Source of the DNA: Flavobacteriales bacterium
GTDB taxonomy: Bacteria; Bacteroidota; Bacteroidia; NS11-12g; UBA955
Direction: 5' to 3'
Assembly (NCBI GenBank): GCA_024643755.1
Contig: JAHEMG010000035.1
Coordinates: forward strand, 1 to 33,506
DNA length: 33,506 nt
A model generated the notes under the pieces. It saw nothing but the letters and a program-made list of their open reading frames with translations. It was not told where the DNA came from and did not search any database. The translations under genes and the position numbers were made by a program. Below, in pieces: positions 16,966 to 23,206 of this stretch. How positions within the stretch are numbered: the first letter of the stretch is position 1; each line of letters starts with the position of its first letter.

Positions 16966-18186
16966 ATGAAAATCAAAGTAGCCAACCCCGTAGTAGAGCT
17001 TGATGGTGATGAAATGACCCGCATCATTTGGCACTTCATCAAAGACAAATTGATCCTTCCTTACCTAGACGTAGATATCAAATATTTCGATTTGGGCATG
17101 GAACACCGCGATGCAACGAATGACCAAGTAACCATCGACGCAGCGGAAGCCATCAAACAATACAACGTGGGAATCAAATGTGCAACCATCACCCCTGATG
17201 AAGCACGCGTTGAAGAATTTGGCTTGAAGCAAATGTGGAAGAGTCCGAACGGAACCATCCGCAATATCCTCGACGGAACCGTTTTCCGTGAGCCCATCGT
17301 TTGTAAAAACGTACCTCGCTTGGTTCCAAACTGGACAGCCCCTATCTGCATTGGCCGTCACGCATTTGGCGATCAATACCGCGCCACCGATTTCGTTACC
17401 AAAGGAAAAGGCAAATTGACCATCAAATTTGAAGGCGAAGATGGACAGGTAATCGAACACGAAGTATACAATTTCAAAGGCGATGGCGTTGCTTTGGCGA
17501 TGTACAACACCGATGAAAGTATCAAAGGATTTGCCCGCGCCTGCTTCAACCAAGCAATCGCAAAAGGCTGGCCTTTGTATTTGAGCACCAAGAACACCAT
17601 CTTGAAAAAGTACGACGGTCGCTTCAAAGACATCTTTGAAGACGTTTACCAAACCGAATTCAAAGCCACCATGGATGCCGCAGGTATCACTTACGAGCAC
17701 CGTTTGATCGACGATATGGTTGCCTCTGCATTGAAGTGGAACGGAAACTTCGTTTGGGCTTGTAAAAACTACGATGGCGACGTTCAGTCCGACACAGTAG
17801 CACAAGGTTTTGGATCATTGGGATTGATGACCAGTGTATTGGTTACGCCAGATGGCAAAACCATGGAAGCAGAAGCCGCTCACGGAACTGTAACCCGTCA
17901 CTACCGTCAGCACCAAAAAGGACAAAAAACCTCAACCAACCCTATCGCGAGCATTTTCGCTTGGACCCGTGGTTTGGAGCATAGAGGTCGCTTAGATGGC
18001 AACGAAGCCTTGATCAATTTCTGTCAAACCCTCGAGCAAGTTTGTATCGATGTGGTTGAAAGCGGCAGAATGACCAAAGATTTGGCAGTTTGCATTTACG
18101 GCAACAAAGTTTCTGAGGATCAGTACATGTACACTGAGGACTTCTTGGAAGCCTTGAACAGCGAATTGAAGGCCCGTTTGGAATAA
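16966..18186 (+). CDS. icd: NADP-dependent isocitrate dehydrogenase, dimeric eukaryote-like type
   Basis: This TCA-cycle enzyme converts isocitrate to 2-oxoglutarate and CO2 with reduction of NADP. The 406-residue chain begins [19 protein letters not shown], the opening of the type II (eukaryote-like) homodimeric enzyme, and shows [19 protein letters not shown] (substrate site) and [25 protein letters not shown] is followed by [17 protein letters not shown]. The coenzyme-binding R/H residues in GTVTRHYR indicate NADP rather than NAD preference, by comparison with the family. Length is as expected. It is followed by two hairpins (18209-18229 and 18269-18295). Confidence 0.96.
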
Positions 18187-18208
18187 TCAAACGAGTCAAT
18201 GGAAAAAC

Positions 18209-18229
18209 AGCCGCGGCAGGGCCGCGGCT
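18209..18229. terminator. GC-rich hairpin after icd
   Basis: The arms AGCCGCGGC (18209-18217) and GCCGCGGCT (18221-18229) pair perfectly around AGG. There is an A-run before it but no T-run after it. It therefore looks like a terminator for the leftward strand, or a message-stabilising hairpin for icd, more than a classical rightward terminator. Confidence 0.55.
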
Positions 18230-18268
18230 GTCAACCAGATTACCAATATATAGGAGTTCGCTCCAACG

Positions 18269-18299: not shown

Positions 18300-19106
18300 T
18301 TAAAACAAATAACTCAGTCCCAATTTCAACTGTAACCACTGCGACTTGTGCACCTCTCGCAACATCACACTTGTCATTACCCTCTGTTGGGTTGGTTCCA
18401 CATTACTATAAATCATATACAACGGCACCCCCGCCGAATTCATCAACGTCAATCCAGAAGTAACCTCAAACACAATCCCTAACTCATCGGTAAGCATGTT
18501 TCTCGTGCCAAATCCGTACGACACCGAAACCATACTCGATGACACCCCCGAGTTCCCAACCCGCGGCAATGAATCCCAACTCGAAGAAGAGTAGTTATCT
18601 CTCCAACTGAGATTGTTTTTTGTGCAGCTTGCCAATCCATAGTGCATATTAGCTACCAAATAACCACCATAAGGCGCTGTAGAGCCCACAATACTCAAGT
18701 AGTTTTTCACTCCAACTACTAGCTCCTTGTAATTCATTTCCATCTCACCGAAAGGATGGTAAAATACATTAGTACCCCACATGCCACCGCCATTATACAC
18801 TTCAATGTCATAATCGTCCCAGTCTGAATTCCCCACCGTGCGATTGTACGATTTAAACCCAAACTGCCAAGAAAGTGTGCTCTTTCTCGCAGTCTCATAA
18901 GAAAACGTATAATTGGTTTGATAACGCGACCCCATATAACGAAACACACCCGCAAAATTCGTCACCCCCTGTATCGTGATGGCCTGCCGCTTACCCAAAT
19001 AACCTGGATTAAACGGACCCGGAGAAGCCAATCCTCCTATATTTCCCAAACCTGCAAACAGGGGCATTCCCATTAACCCCACGCAGATTAACAACATCTT
19101 TTTCAT
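18300..19106 (-). CDS. predicted outer-membrane beta-barrel protein
   Basis: A 268-residue protein with a signal peptide (MKKMLLICVGLMGMPLFAG), rich in alternating aromatic/polar strands such as YQTNYTFSYETARKSTLSWQ, and ending in LQLKLGLSYLF with a terminal phenylalanine, as outer-membrane barrels do. I do not recognise a characterised family. The middle contains a Ser/Trp-rich loop (NYSSSSWDSLP). Its ATG is one base past the stop codon of the M48 metallopeptidase gene, so the two are almost certainly translated from one message. This suggests a functional link, for example peptidase-assisted assembly or quality control of the barrel; that link is inference. Confidence 0.75.
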   Translation of the reverse strand: MKKMLLICVGLMGMPLFAGLGNIGGLASPGPFNPGYLGKRQAITIQGVTNFAGVFRYMGSRYQTNYTFSYETARKSTLSWQFGFKSYNRTVGNSDWDDYDIEVYNGGGMWGTNVFYHPFGEMEMNYKELVVGVKNYLSIVGSTAPYGGYLVANMHYGLASCTKNNLSWRDNYSSSSWDSLPRVGNSGVSSSMVSVSYGFGTRNMLTDELGIVFEVTSGLTLMNSAGVPLYMIYSNVEPTQQRVMTSVMLREVHKSQWLQLKLGLSYLF

Positions 19107-19107
19107 C

Positions 19108-21393
19108 TTATTTTCCTCCCTTTACTAAGTAATACAAATTGTTATACACCCTCGATTTTACGAAATCACCACGCCAACGATGCGTAAATTGATCTTCCTT
19201 CACCTGAATCAACTTTCCATCTTTCACGTCATAAACGAGTAAGAACTCCTCCCAAGAACGATCAGAACCAAACTGATAATAGAGGTAATAAGGCATAATT
19301 GGATACAATACAAAGCATAATAAGAAATTGGTCACCTTGAATTTACGTCCAATCACAGATGCCTCTACGGCCGACCACGCCAAATAACGATTCGATTCTC
19401 CACCCATCGCTTCCACAATATTTTCGGCTCCATATAAAATCATCTCTTGGGTATCATTGTTGATCCGCTCCATCATCCAATCATTGATGATCATTTGTCG
19501 GTTAATTATATCAGTAGACAATCCAGCTACGCCGGTCGACATTGGTACTACATCTACTTTCACATCCAAAACACGACCGCTATTCTCCCAATAACTCACC
19601 AATTCTTCTCGTTTATTCGCCTCATCATAAGGATCTCTTTGCGATTTTACATCGTTACCAGTGGTGTAACTCAAATTGGGCTCAAGCAACACCAGATGGT
19701 CAAAATTGGGCAGTCCTTTGAATCCGCGCGACTTCTTCTTTGAAGTTGCAGGTTTAGCGATAGTTGCGGACGGATACACACGCATCCTCCCCAAATAATC
19801 TTGCAGAGAATCACGATTCATCATTCCATAATAAATGGCCATGAAATAATCGCCGCTCACTACGTTCGCGGCCCTGCTTCGCGCAACCCGGGACCTAGGA
19901 TTCCTTAGCCCTGCATCGCCACCTTCCGGTTTCAAAACCGTACTATCCAATTTTGCGGCTTCCTCGACAGGCAAATAATCCAAGAAATCCTGTAAACGAA
20001 AATTACAAGCACCCTGTACCAAACCAAATACCCCACTTCCCAATCGCTCCATCATTCCGTCACGTAGGTGTGTCCTTTCATTCAACTGCCACATGCGCAT
20101 GGCAGCAAAAGCACCCAACCCCCGCAAATCCAACTCCCTGAATCCAACAATCACCGGACGCCAATCACCGCGCGACTCTTCTACATTGCATCCATAGCGA
20201 TCCAAATCATGCTCCTTCGATTTGTGCAACAACAATCCATAGAGCGACATTCCCTCCATGCGATCAAAAAATACGCTTTCGCCGTACAACCGACGCATCA
20301 CATGTGTCAAGTAAAACAACTCCCCAAAATCAGCCCTGCGCTCATAAATCAACAACAATTCATGTCGCGCCACCTTCTGCATCTCCTTAAACCGATCCTC
20401 ACCCACCAAGAAAAACGCCTTGGTTTTCTTGGGCTCCCCATCAATCATATCGCGCAAACGAACCACCCGACGATCCAAACTAGGATGGGTTCTGTTATCG
20501 TCATCACCTTGCAAAATCAAAAATTTATTGTCCTCAATCTCCGCATCCTTAACCTTTAAATTCACCGCATCTTTCAACGTTTTTGGAAACTCATAGGCAT
20601 CATGCTCGAAAGAATCCAACGACAATTTCATCTCCAAAAAAGGAAAATCACCGTACTTCAACATGTCAAACACAAACACCCCTTCTATCAAGTCATACCC
20701 CGATTTCAACATCATCTGAAAGCCCTTTTCGTCGGCCTCCATCTCATGATCCTTCGAAAATTGATACATCTCTTTCAAGGACGCATCCTGGTCGCGCTTT
20801 CCCTTCTGTTTCTTTTGTCCGATGCGATGCTTGTACTGCTGCAAGGAATGTTGCAACGTGTAATGCTGAATCTCATGGGCCAAAATAAAGGCCAGCTGAC
20901 TCTCATTTTCGATTCTACTCAACAGCCCCACGGTTACCATCACCACTCCATTGCTGGTTGCATAAGCATTCACCTCTTGCGATTTCAACACATAGAACCG
21001 CAACTCATTCAACAAATCCTCCCGATCATTGGCTTTAAGCAATCGCTCCGCCACGGATTCTACGAAAGAGGAAAGGGGGTCGCCGTAGAGGACGCGGCCC
21101 GACATCAAAATCTCATCAACGCCAAATACCGTGCGAACGGCATGTTCTTTTTCCTGTAATTTTTCGGCCCGATCCAGATCCTTGTTCATGACCGTTGTTT
21201 CCGCCTTGTGGGCTTTACTTACTGAAGACTCCTTGAAATCGGATGGCAATTCACCCTCACACCGCAAACCGGGGTAGTGATTAAAATCAATCTTTGACCG
21301 CACAGATTGGGACTCTCCCCGAATCGCAGCAAAGCCCAATACACCCAAACACAACAGACGCTGAAAAGTCCGGATTGTCAAGTTGCTCAACAT
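19108..21393 (-). CDS. large M48-family metallopeptidase, exported
   Basis: A 761-residue protein. A signal peptide (about residues 1-29) is followed by an M48 peptidase domain at about 85-290, with LAHEIQHYTLQHSL (HExxH at 173-177) and DHEMEADEKG (E217-D221), the distal zinc-ligand motif. The remaining 450 residues are not recognisable: they include a lysine/proline-rich stretch (ATSKKKSRGFKG) and a C-terminal WRGDFVKSRVYNNLYYLVKGGK. Most M48 proteins of this layout are near 250-500 residues, so the long C-terminal region is unusual. No clear tetratricopeptide repeats are visible, unlike BepA. It should act in the periplasm. The gene is followed with a 1-base gap by an outer-membrane barrel gene, and a degenerate -7 element lies 5 bases before its start. 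Confidence 0.85.
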   Translation of the reverse strand: MLSNLTIRTFQRLLCLGVLGFAAIRGESQSVRSKIDFNHYPGLRCEGELPSDFKESSVSKAHKAETTVMNKDLDRAEKLQEKEHAVRTVFGVDEILMSGRVLYGDPLSSFVESVAERLLKANDREDLLNELRFYVLKSQEVNAYATSNGVVMVTVGLLSRIENESQLAFILAHEIQHYTLQHSLQQYKHRIGQKKQKGKRDQDASLKEMYQFSKDHEMEADEKGFQMMLKSGYDLIEGVFVFDMLKYGDFPFLEMKLSLDSFEHDAYEFPKTLKDAVNLKVKDAEIEDNKFLILQGDDDNRTHPSLDRRVVRLRDMIDGEPKKTKAFFLVGEDRFKEMQKVARHELLLIYERRADFGELFYLTHVMRRLYGESVFFDRMEGMSLYGLLLHKSKEHDLDRYGCNVEESRGDWRPVIVGFRELDLRGLGAFAAMRMWQLNERTHLRDGMMERLGSGVFGLVQGACNFRLQDFLDYLPVEEAAKLDSTVLKPEGGDAGLRNPRSRVARSRAANVVSGDYFMAIYYGMMNRDSLQDYLGRMRVYPSATIAKPATSKKKSRGFKGLPNFDHLVLLEPNLSYTTGNDVKSQRDPYDEANKREELVSYWENSGRVLDVKVDVVPMSTGVAGLSTDIINRQMIINDWMMERINNDTQEMILYGAENIVEAMGGESNRYLAWSAVEASVIGRKFKVTNFLLCFVLYPIMPYYLYYQFGSDRSWEEFLLVYDVKDGKLIQVKEDQFTHRWRGDFVKSRVYNNLYYLVKGGK

Positions 21394-21523: not shown

Positions 21524-22633
21524 TTAGAACAAGTCTTTCAATTTGTCAAAAAACGACTTTTCCTTGGATGAAGGTTTGAAATTTTCAGATTCAGCCAGTT
21601 TTTCCAATAAGGCTTTTTCCTCTGAATTCACTTTGGTGGGAACATATACATTCAACACCACCAACTGATCACCGGTGCCGTAGCCATTCAAATCAGGGAA
21701 TCCTTTGCCCTTCAAACGCAACATTTTCCCAGGTTGGGTACCCGCATCAATTTTAATCCTCACTTTGCCATCCAACGTGGGCACTTCTACACTATCGCCC
21801 AAAGTAGCTTGAGAAAAACTCAACCACAAATGATAGATAACATTGTTGTCCTCACGGGTTAACTCTTCATGCGGAATTCCCTCTACCAATACGATCAAAT
21901 CACCGGCAGCACCACCCCCTGGACCGTAGTTTCCTTTTCCATTCATGCTCAACTGCATGCCTTCAGCCACACCACCGGGAATGCGAATGCTGGTTTCAAT
22001 CTCCTGAGAAATCAGCCCCTGTTCGTTGGCTTCTTTGGGTTTACTTTCGATGATTTTACCCATGCCCGAACACACTGGACAAGGACTGTTTGTGGCCATC
22101 TGACCCAAGAAGGTATTCTGAACCCTACGAACGGCACCAGAGCCATTACATTGCTTACAAGTGGCATACTTCACCCCTTCCGCCTGCACCATTCTGCGAT
22201 ATTTCACCGTCTTCTCCACCCCAGATTTCATCTCGGGCAAAGTCAACTTGATTTTGATGCGAATGTTAGAACCCACAGACCGGCGAGATCTTCCACCGCC
22301 TCCGCCGCCAAAGAAGGAGCCAAAAACCCCATCATCACCGAACACATCGCCAAACTGAGAGAAAATATCGTCCATGCTGAAGCCATGCGCACCGCCGCCA
22401 CCGCCTGCACCCATGCCCGCATGACCAAATTGATCATACCGTTGCTTTTTGTCTGGGTTGCTCAACACATCATAGGCCTCCGCGGCTTCTTTGAAATTCT
22501 CTTCGGCCTCTTTATCCCCCGGATTTTTATCGGGGTGAAACTTGATGGCCAACTTGCGGTAGGCTTTCTTGATCTCCTCGGCTGTTGAACTCCGCGAAAC
22601 CCCTAGCACGTCATAATAATCTCTCTTACTCAT
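21524..22633 (-). CDS. dnaJ: chaperone DnaJ with reduced zinc-finger region
   Basis: This is the co-chaperone that delivers clients to DnaK and stimulates its ATPase. The 369-residue protein has a J domain with HPD at 33-35, a Gly/Phe-rich linker (about 71-116), a cysteine region, and two C-terminal client-binding barrels ([29 protein letters not shown]). The cysteine region has only two CxxCxGxG repeats, CKQCNGSG (159-166) and CPVCSGMG (185-192), in place of the usual four. It could bind one zinc rather than two. From memory, other Bacteroidota DnaJ proteins are similar, so this is probably a lineage trait rather than damage. grpE lies 6 bases upstream; dnaK is not in the window. Confidence 0.95.
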
Positions 22634-22639
22634 GTTCTA

Positions 22640-23206
22640 TTAATTTCCTACGACCACTTTCGCGAATCGAATTACTTTGTCATTCAAATAATAACCCTTC
22701 TCAACTTCATCAATCACCTTGCCCTTCATGTCTTCGGTAGGTGCCGGAAATTGGGTAATGGCCTCATGGATCTCTGCGTCAAATACTTGTCCAATCGACT
22801 CCATTGGCTTTAAACCCACTTTGGTGAAAATTCCCACCATTTTTTTATGAATCAAATCAAATCCTTCTACTGCCTTTTTTTCAGTCTCTGACAGATTTTC
22901 CATGGCTTTCAATGCACGTTCAAAATCGTCGACCACCGGCAACATACTCACCAAAACGTCCTTTGAAGCGGTTTGCATCCAATCCAAACGATCTTTGGTG
23001 GTTCTTCTGCGGAAATTTTCAAATTCACTATACAAACGCAAATATTTGTCGCGCTCTTGCTGCAATTGACCCTGCAAGTCGGTATCCGCCACAGTTTCAT
23101 CTCCATTAGATGTGGCCGATGTGGTATCCTCTGTGGGTTGATCCGTTGTCTTTTCTACGCCCTCCAAGGACTCTTCTGCTTCTGATTTCACTTTGTTCTT
23201 TGACAT
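22640..23206 (-). CDS. grpE: nucleotide exchange factor GrpE
   Basis: GrpE releases ADP from DnaK in the chaperone cycle. The 188-residue protein has an acidic, low-complexity N-terminus (about 1-45), then a long coiled coil through QLQQERDKYLRLYSEFENFRRR. The four-helix core follows (VLVSMLPVVDDFERALKAM), and the C-terminal beta-wing contains FDAEIHEAITQFPAP and GYYLNDKVIRFAKVVVGN, the GrpE signature. It is co-transcribed with dnaJ (6-base gap). No CIRCE element is visible upstream; a short tandem repeat at 23249-23264 in the gap shared with ribE might be a control site. Confidence 0.96.
   Translation of the reverse strand: MSKNKVKSEAEESLEGVEKTTDQPTEDTTSATSNGDETVADTDLQGQLQQERDKYLRLYSEFENFRRRTTKDRLDWMQTASKDVLVSMLPVVDDFERALKAMENLSETEKKAVEGFDLIHKKMVGIFTKVGLKPMESIGQVFDAEIHEAITQFPAPTEDMKGKVIDEVEKGYYLNDKVIRFAKVVVGN

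Follow-up and report, generated by a model that had tools for sequence, protein, structure and literature searches.

The locus described here raises the question of why a gene for an M48 metallopeptidase and a gene for an outer-membrane barrel are separated by a single base, and what the two proteins may do together. The window, i.e., the whole stretch of DNA analysed, comprises 33,506 nt from a Flavobacteriales genome. The peptidase gene (19108-21393, minus strand) is an intact open reading frame of 761 aa with a signal peptide, an M48 domain (residues about 36-330), a helical middle part and a C-terminal domain; the barrel gene (18300-19106, minus strand) encodes 268 aa with 8 strands, as judged from the open reading frame and a structural model. 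Both were found where a first-pass annotation of the sequence had placed them, and the one-base gap it had reported is present: the junction (19104..19110, minus strand) reads TAA-G-ATG, with the peptidase stop codon at 19110-19108, the G at 19107 and the barrel start codon at 19106-19104. Upstream of the peptidase are what we take, from their translations, to be dnaJ (21524-22633, minus strand) and, further upstream, grpE (22640-23206, minus strand), and beyond the barrel is a presumed icd (16966-18186) in opposite orientation. A terminator-like hairpin of 12 pairs with a T tail (18206..18232, minus strand) is situated downstream of the barrel; it has the most pairs of the ten such sites in the region, where 4.2 are expected by shuffling. 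A second, diverged M48-barrel pair is present in the same genome (L005:863-3852, on the short contig C80). Its barrel is cut by the contig end, and the missing part may be a barrel end of 64 residues with which contig C204 begins.

The peptidase matches Pfam M48 (PF01435, E 1.1e-18) and displays the features by which M48 membership is judged, i.e., HExxH, a downstream Glu ligand and an HP plug. The catalytic domain (20446..21288, minus strand; residues about 36-316, from PF01435 and structural matches) carries HEIQH at 173-177, ExxxD at 217-221 (E217 and D221) and the plug at H303-P304. H173, E174, H177, E217, D221, H303, P304 and R309 are identical in 71/71 aligned sequences, that of the window included; the alignment leaves out L143 (937 aa) and L151 (913 aa) of 72 eligible M48 sequences. 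An AlphaFold model made with 71 sequences has a pLDDT of 85.3 and a pTM of 0.84, and the best structural match (VIA) to its M48 part is BepA (6sar, Z 18.1 over 217 residues, rmsd 4.9; 6ait, Z 17.5), with 3c37 also matching at Z 17.6. The analogy with BepA drawn in the first-pass annotation is thus well supported for the peptidase domain, both by these matches and by the common HP plug motif. According to a study of BepA, its plug His is the fourth zinc ligand and mobility of the plug is needed for proteolysis (PMC7950410). The peptidase had also been called unusually long. This is so with respect to the PF01435 model (186 positions), but 761 aa is normal in its own family, where intact M48 reading frames are mostly 709-808 aa with two forms of 913 and 937 aa (best 80 loci of 471 relatives). 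The two longer forms come from MAGs (L143:5402-8215, 937 aa; L151:6857-9598, 913 aa), and the second of these has no barrel behind it.

Approximately 440 residues of the peptidase lie beyond the catalytic domain, and the annotation saw no recognised fold in them. That holds for Pfam, but by predicted structure the last ~200 residues (557-761) match the CsgG/PelC/TolB-N group. The middle part (residues about 331-545) is all helical in the AlphaFold model, and the helices, on their own, might hint at a TPR identity; no TPR family is among the Pfam hits of this region (45 members, from an alignment of 44/70 listed middle pieces plus the window). The VIA match to BepA extends to peptidase residue 383 with 6ait and to residue 620 with 6sar. 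Searches of Pfam, NCBIfam and PDB sequences gave no identity for either the middle region or the C-terminal domain.

Structure prediction of the C-terminal region, a check proposed along with the original annotation, returned a fold match instead of none. The domain (19111..19728, minus strand; residues about 556-761) has VIA matches to HpaA (Z 10.7), PelC (10.1), FlgT (9.8), PqiC (9.5), TraT (9.0) and CsgG (9.0). It should be noted that these alignments (Z 9-10.7) cover 118-149 residues at an rmsd of 3.0-5.7 on a predicted model, and that a VIA Z under about 8 may reflect only a common arrangement, a value which the best C-terminal matches exceed. Many entries of this one fold group recur among the structural matches, and in Foldseek PelC (1.6e-2) and GNA1162 (1.8e-2) rank directly after the M48 proteins, with weak E-values. 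The fold predicted for residues 557-761 is that of CsgG/PelC/TolB-N/TraT, which is found in proteins associated with the outer membrane. At the sequence level, Pfam gave no named family of the CsgG/PelC/TolB-N group among the best 25 of 32 families (52 members, from 51/70 listed C-terminal pieces plus the window), and comparison of the C-terminal profile with PDB sequences gave only unrelated matches, at E 0.94 or worse. The predicted domain also includes a hairpin, residues 683-709, which is hydrophobic and placed between two strands; this segment is above the hydropathy threshold in 48/49 testable sequences and has a Pro at position 701 in 42/52.

The barrel model (pLDDT 87.4, pTM 0.80) shows 8 long strands, and its structural matches are to OprF (Z 16.9), OmpW (15.2) and OmpA (14.7). 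Eight antiparallel strands in the model and a C-terminal Phe (the protein ends in YLF) are the attributes of an 8-stranded OmpA-type barrel. The window's barrel has no Pfam match, no PDB sequence match and no NCBIfam identity, and the family as a whole shows weak Pfam matches of single members only. Two motifs are found, NPGYLGKR at 33-40 immediately after the signal peptide and APYG at 144-147 in a turn. Relative entropy is highest in that post-signal tail (2.53 bits) and in turn T2 with APYG (1.87 bits) and lowest in the outside loops (0.58-0.73), and P145 and G147 are identical in 53/53 sequences (of 56 barrels, four, i.e., L145, L146 and two of L152, were left out of the alignment). Assignment of inside and outside follows the usual barrel rule, which places the N-terminus and the short turns in the periplasm; the most conserved elements of the modeled barrel should thus be those that face the periplasm.

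Conservation of the gene pair was assayed by a contig scan, which gave 471 relatives; the best 80 loci were retained, and by record title these are from Flavobacteriales, Saprospiraceae, Chitinophagales, Cytophagales and Bacteroidales. A 25-row M48 alignment proved too diverse as a query for the scan, and 11 closer rows were used instead. Among the best 80 loci, a barrel is found directly behind the M48 gene in 63/71 testable loci, compared with 1/217 control reading frames, where a testable M48 gene has 750 bases of downstream sequence and the barrel had to lie between -100 and +60 bases in the same orientation. Since the barrel profile was built in part from many of the barrels tested, a split-training run served as control: with an HMM from other genomes, a barrel was found behind 42/53 M48 genes less than 50% identical to the training set, and 10/315 non-adjacent reading frames also matched, some of which may encode a second barrel within the same module. 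Eight loci are exceptions (L115, L160, L112, L124, L130, L147, L151 and L156); in L115 the barrel is 125 bases downstream of the M48 gene, and in L160 a barrel-like reading frame with VPGYLGKK is upstream of it. The pair persists while its gene neighbourhoods vary widely. Crocinitomix catalasitica ATCC 23190 is among the strains that carry a pair of this family (L125). The figures of 63/71 and 1/217 rule out chance adjacency and, together with an empty site in six congeners described below, an assembly artefact.

Co-occurrence was counted, from listings, in 65 genomes of the order that are at least 90% complete, with the barrel accepted at E < 1e-10. Both genes are present in 31 genomes, neither in 31, the peptidase only in two and the barrel only in one (Fisher p 5e-15, in genomes that are not independent). 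The peptidase-only genomes are G024 and G014, the latter with broken pieces at a contig edge where bases are unread, and in the barrel-only genome (G051) the barrel is likewise at a contig edge. A looser barrel cut of 1e-4 adds two genomes (G356 and G056) with weak barrel matches and no peptidase. Of the 31 genomes with both genes, 30 have one or more pairs with adjacent coordinates; in the remaining one, G357, the genes are on different contigs. Single genes are also found at G363:C33 (an M48 gene without a barrel neighbour) and at G353:C278 (a barrel without an M48 neighbour). Separation of the two genes in relatives, which the annotation had set as the test of its proposal, is therefore confined to few cases (G357, G363:C33 and G353:C278) against a large majority of adjacent pairs. 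In a set of 58 genomes, made up of that of the window plus relatives, 28 have the peptidase, and a search with a single barrel sequence gave matches in ten; in the nine of these other than the window's own, the barrel match is directly behind the peptidase (9/9). One weak barrel match (G011:C9, E 0.003) is away from the peptidase.

Important is the state of the dnaJ-icd site in congeners. Six congeners without the peptidase (G004, G005, G008, G009, G012 and G013) carry grpE-dnaJ-icd with dnaJ adjoining icd and neither gene of the pair between them, i.e., the site is empty where the window has the pair. The pair is present at this site in the window, G002, G003, G006 and G011, with the site split over contigs or cut in G003 and G011. 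Thus the peptidase and barrel come and go as a unit. The pair is also found between dnaJ and icd in another genus (L054 and L270), and joint loss is therefore the simpler account; repeated loss is more likely than repeated gain. In the congener tree the absences fall in separate parts, with several nodes at support 63-80 and the placement of G011 resting on 399 residues. In a phylum sample of 296 genomes, the full-length family was found only in the window's own genome, although absences are weak here, as at most three candidates per genome were scored; matches in 72 other genomes are to M48 proteins that are shorter or partial, mostly open frames of ~260-600 aa, and one frame of 779 aa matches in the catalytic part only.

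Distance matrices of M48 and barrel proteins are correlated over 85 distinct pairs (r = 0.64; best of 500 permutations 0.17), some of which shared ancestry alone would give. In genomes with two or three pairs, the barrel tracks its own M48 in 11/14 cases, i.e., of the sibling barrels it lies closest to the barrel that accompanies the nearest outside M48; in all three failures that M48 is at a distance of more than 2.3 substitutions per site. Taken with the adjacency and the joint absences, these results show that the peptidase and barrel genes form one functional unit.

Several loci display additional genes or altered arrangements. A lipoprotein-like reading frame of 100-300 aa, recognised by a simple pattern, is behind 27/97 distinct barrels compared with 17/808 control reading frames. 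In five loci (L079, L082, L264, L267 and L268) a reading frame of 741-771 aa overlaps the M48 gene start by 1 to 4 bases; that of L268 has a type IX sorting domain (E 3.9e-6), and for that of L264 no Pfam family was found. These loci form an extended row (e.g., L268:1107-6828 and L264:4033-9739) of a ~750 aa secreted protein, the M48 peptidase, the barrel and in some a lipoprotein. An M48 subfamily of ~700 aa (L074, L075, L076, L078 and L080) has, besides the downstream barrel, an extra reading frame of ~225 aa just upstream that ends in ILNY or VLNY and is possibly a second barrel. Tandem M48-barrel-M48(-barrel) arrangements are found in L152:3024-8852 and L139, and two successive barrel reading frames follow one M48 gene in L109, L133, L157 and L258.

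The conserved pair points to an undescribed two-protein machine at the outer membrane. The reading preferred here, with a probability of about 0.5, is that the barrel is an outer-membrane anchor or activator of the protease and that the two form one protease complex; it is favored because a barrel on its own, with no protease, is almost never retained and because the conserved side of the barrel should face the protease's compartment. The M48 protein would be exported via its signal peptide, in nearly all relatives presumably without a lipid anchor, as a lipobox-like start is present in 1/71 M48 sequences. It would be held on the periplasmic side of the outer membrane by the C-terminal CsgG/PelC-like domain, perhaps with the hydrophobic hairpin inserted in the membrane, and the 8-stranded barrel, translated right after, would help to hold the protease there. 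On the barrel, docking or activation would most likely involve the PGYxGK tail behind the signal peptide and the APxG turn, and at the cell surface the variable outside loops may detect or bind some factor. The active site might be kept shut by the HP plug until docking or a substrate frees it, after which the protease would attack clients other than the barrel, in the outer membrane or the periplasm. Proteins of the CsgG/PelC-type fold are located on outer-membrane barrels or rings or adjacent to them, and barrels of 8 strands are normally too narrow to form a pore. In favor of the anchor or activator role are the adjacency, co-occurrence, empty site, co-diversification, periplasmic-side conservation, C-terminal fold and scarcity of lipoboxes; against it are the peptidases without an adjacent barrel in G024 and G363:C33 and the pair on different contigs in G357. 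It should be noted that the fold match underlying this role is that of a predicted structure, with no counterpart at the sequence level, and that we infer the physical contact of the two proteins, the anchoring, the activation and the identity of the clients as other proteins.

The first-pass annotation had proposed that the peptidase processes or checks the barrel. The functional link it drew is borne out by adjacency, co-occurrence, joint absence and co-diversification, and joint loss and conserved periplasmic barrel elements fit a stable complex at least as well as either of the roles it named. In one of these, the main rival, the M48 protein is a dedicated BepA-like chaperone and quality-control protease that helps the barrel to fold or degrades failed molecules, which is possible though we consider it doubtful. 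The tight gene coupling and the co-diversification suit such a role, and BepA, the closest structure, acts on the barrel LptD according to one report (PMC8423444). However, a barrel with a function of its own should sometimes persist alone, and at E < 1e-10 this is the case in 1/65 genomes, at a contig edge. Moreover, small barrels of the 8-stranded type normally fold without a dedicated protease. The other role, in which the peptidase cuts the PGYxGK tail or a loop and so matures the barrel or releases a signal, seems unlikely: conservation within the barrel does peak in the tail, which directly follows the signal peptide and lies in the periplasm, but its conservation suits docking equally well, and there is no known cleavage site or released product.

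That unrelated outer-membrane genes are co-transcribed for convenience, with no shared complex, is very improbable and already largely refuted. The position of the pair behind grpE-dnaJ, other general proteostasis genes, in this genus would agree with it, but the pair stays while neighbourhoods differ widely, both genes together are missing at one site in six congeners, and partners stay together in paralogous pairs. A more elaborate arrangement, likewise improbable, is a protease ring inserted in the outer membrane, whereby the C-terminal domain would oligomerise like TraT, PelC or CsgG with its hairpins in the membrane and many plug-gated M48 domains in the periplasm, and the barrels with their variable loops would be surface sensors or exclusion factors that unlock proteolysis. 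If true, Bacteroidota would have in it an accessory, loss-prone proteolytic system that runs from the surface to the periplasm.

With regard to known systems, an M48 envelope protease is of a known kind, but we did not find the domain combination with a dedicated barrel described; no account of an M48-barrel pair was found in a literature search without subscription papers and preprints, where it may be described. Little is known about how envelope proteases of Bacteroidota find their clients and are restricted to them. Here, with a protease that carries a CsgG/PelC-like domain and is encoded with its own small barrel, the system is defined by two proteins, and whether the barrel is anchor, activator or client is directly testable; the pair is also a tractable case of an outer-membrane complex lost as a unit. 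BepA (YfgC), the periplasmic M48 protease at the BAM complex of E. coli, has in common with the peptidase the M48 fold, HExxH, ExxxD, the HP plug, export and a helical region that follows. Unlike the BepA structures, the peptidase has a predicted C-terminal CsgG/PelC-fold domain and an adjoining partner barrel gene, and it has no TPR match by Pfam; against the NCBIfam BepA model NF052400 it scores 61.5 bits, with the best stretch at 100-182, where the cut-off is 570. With the group of PelC, CsgG, TraT, the TolB N-terminal domain, PqiC, LptE and FlgT the C-terminal domain shares the predicted fold (Z 7.2-10.7), but it differs in having no sequence match, in its fusion to a protease and in the near absence of a lipobox-like start. 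Its hydrophobic segment could enter the membrane and is in this respect like TraT, in which, according to a published account, three amphipathic transmembrane helices anchor a decamer (PMC11733297). The barrel has 8 strands as do OmpA, OprF and OmpW; unlike these it has no Pfam or PDB sequence match, and it displays its own PGYxGK and APxG motifs and is encoded together with an M48 protease.
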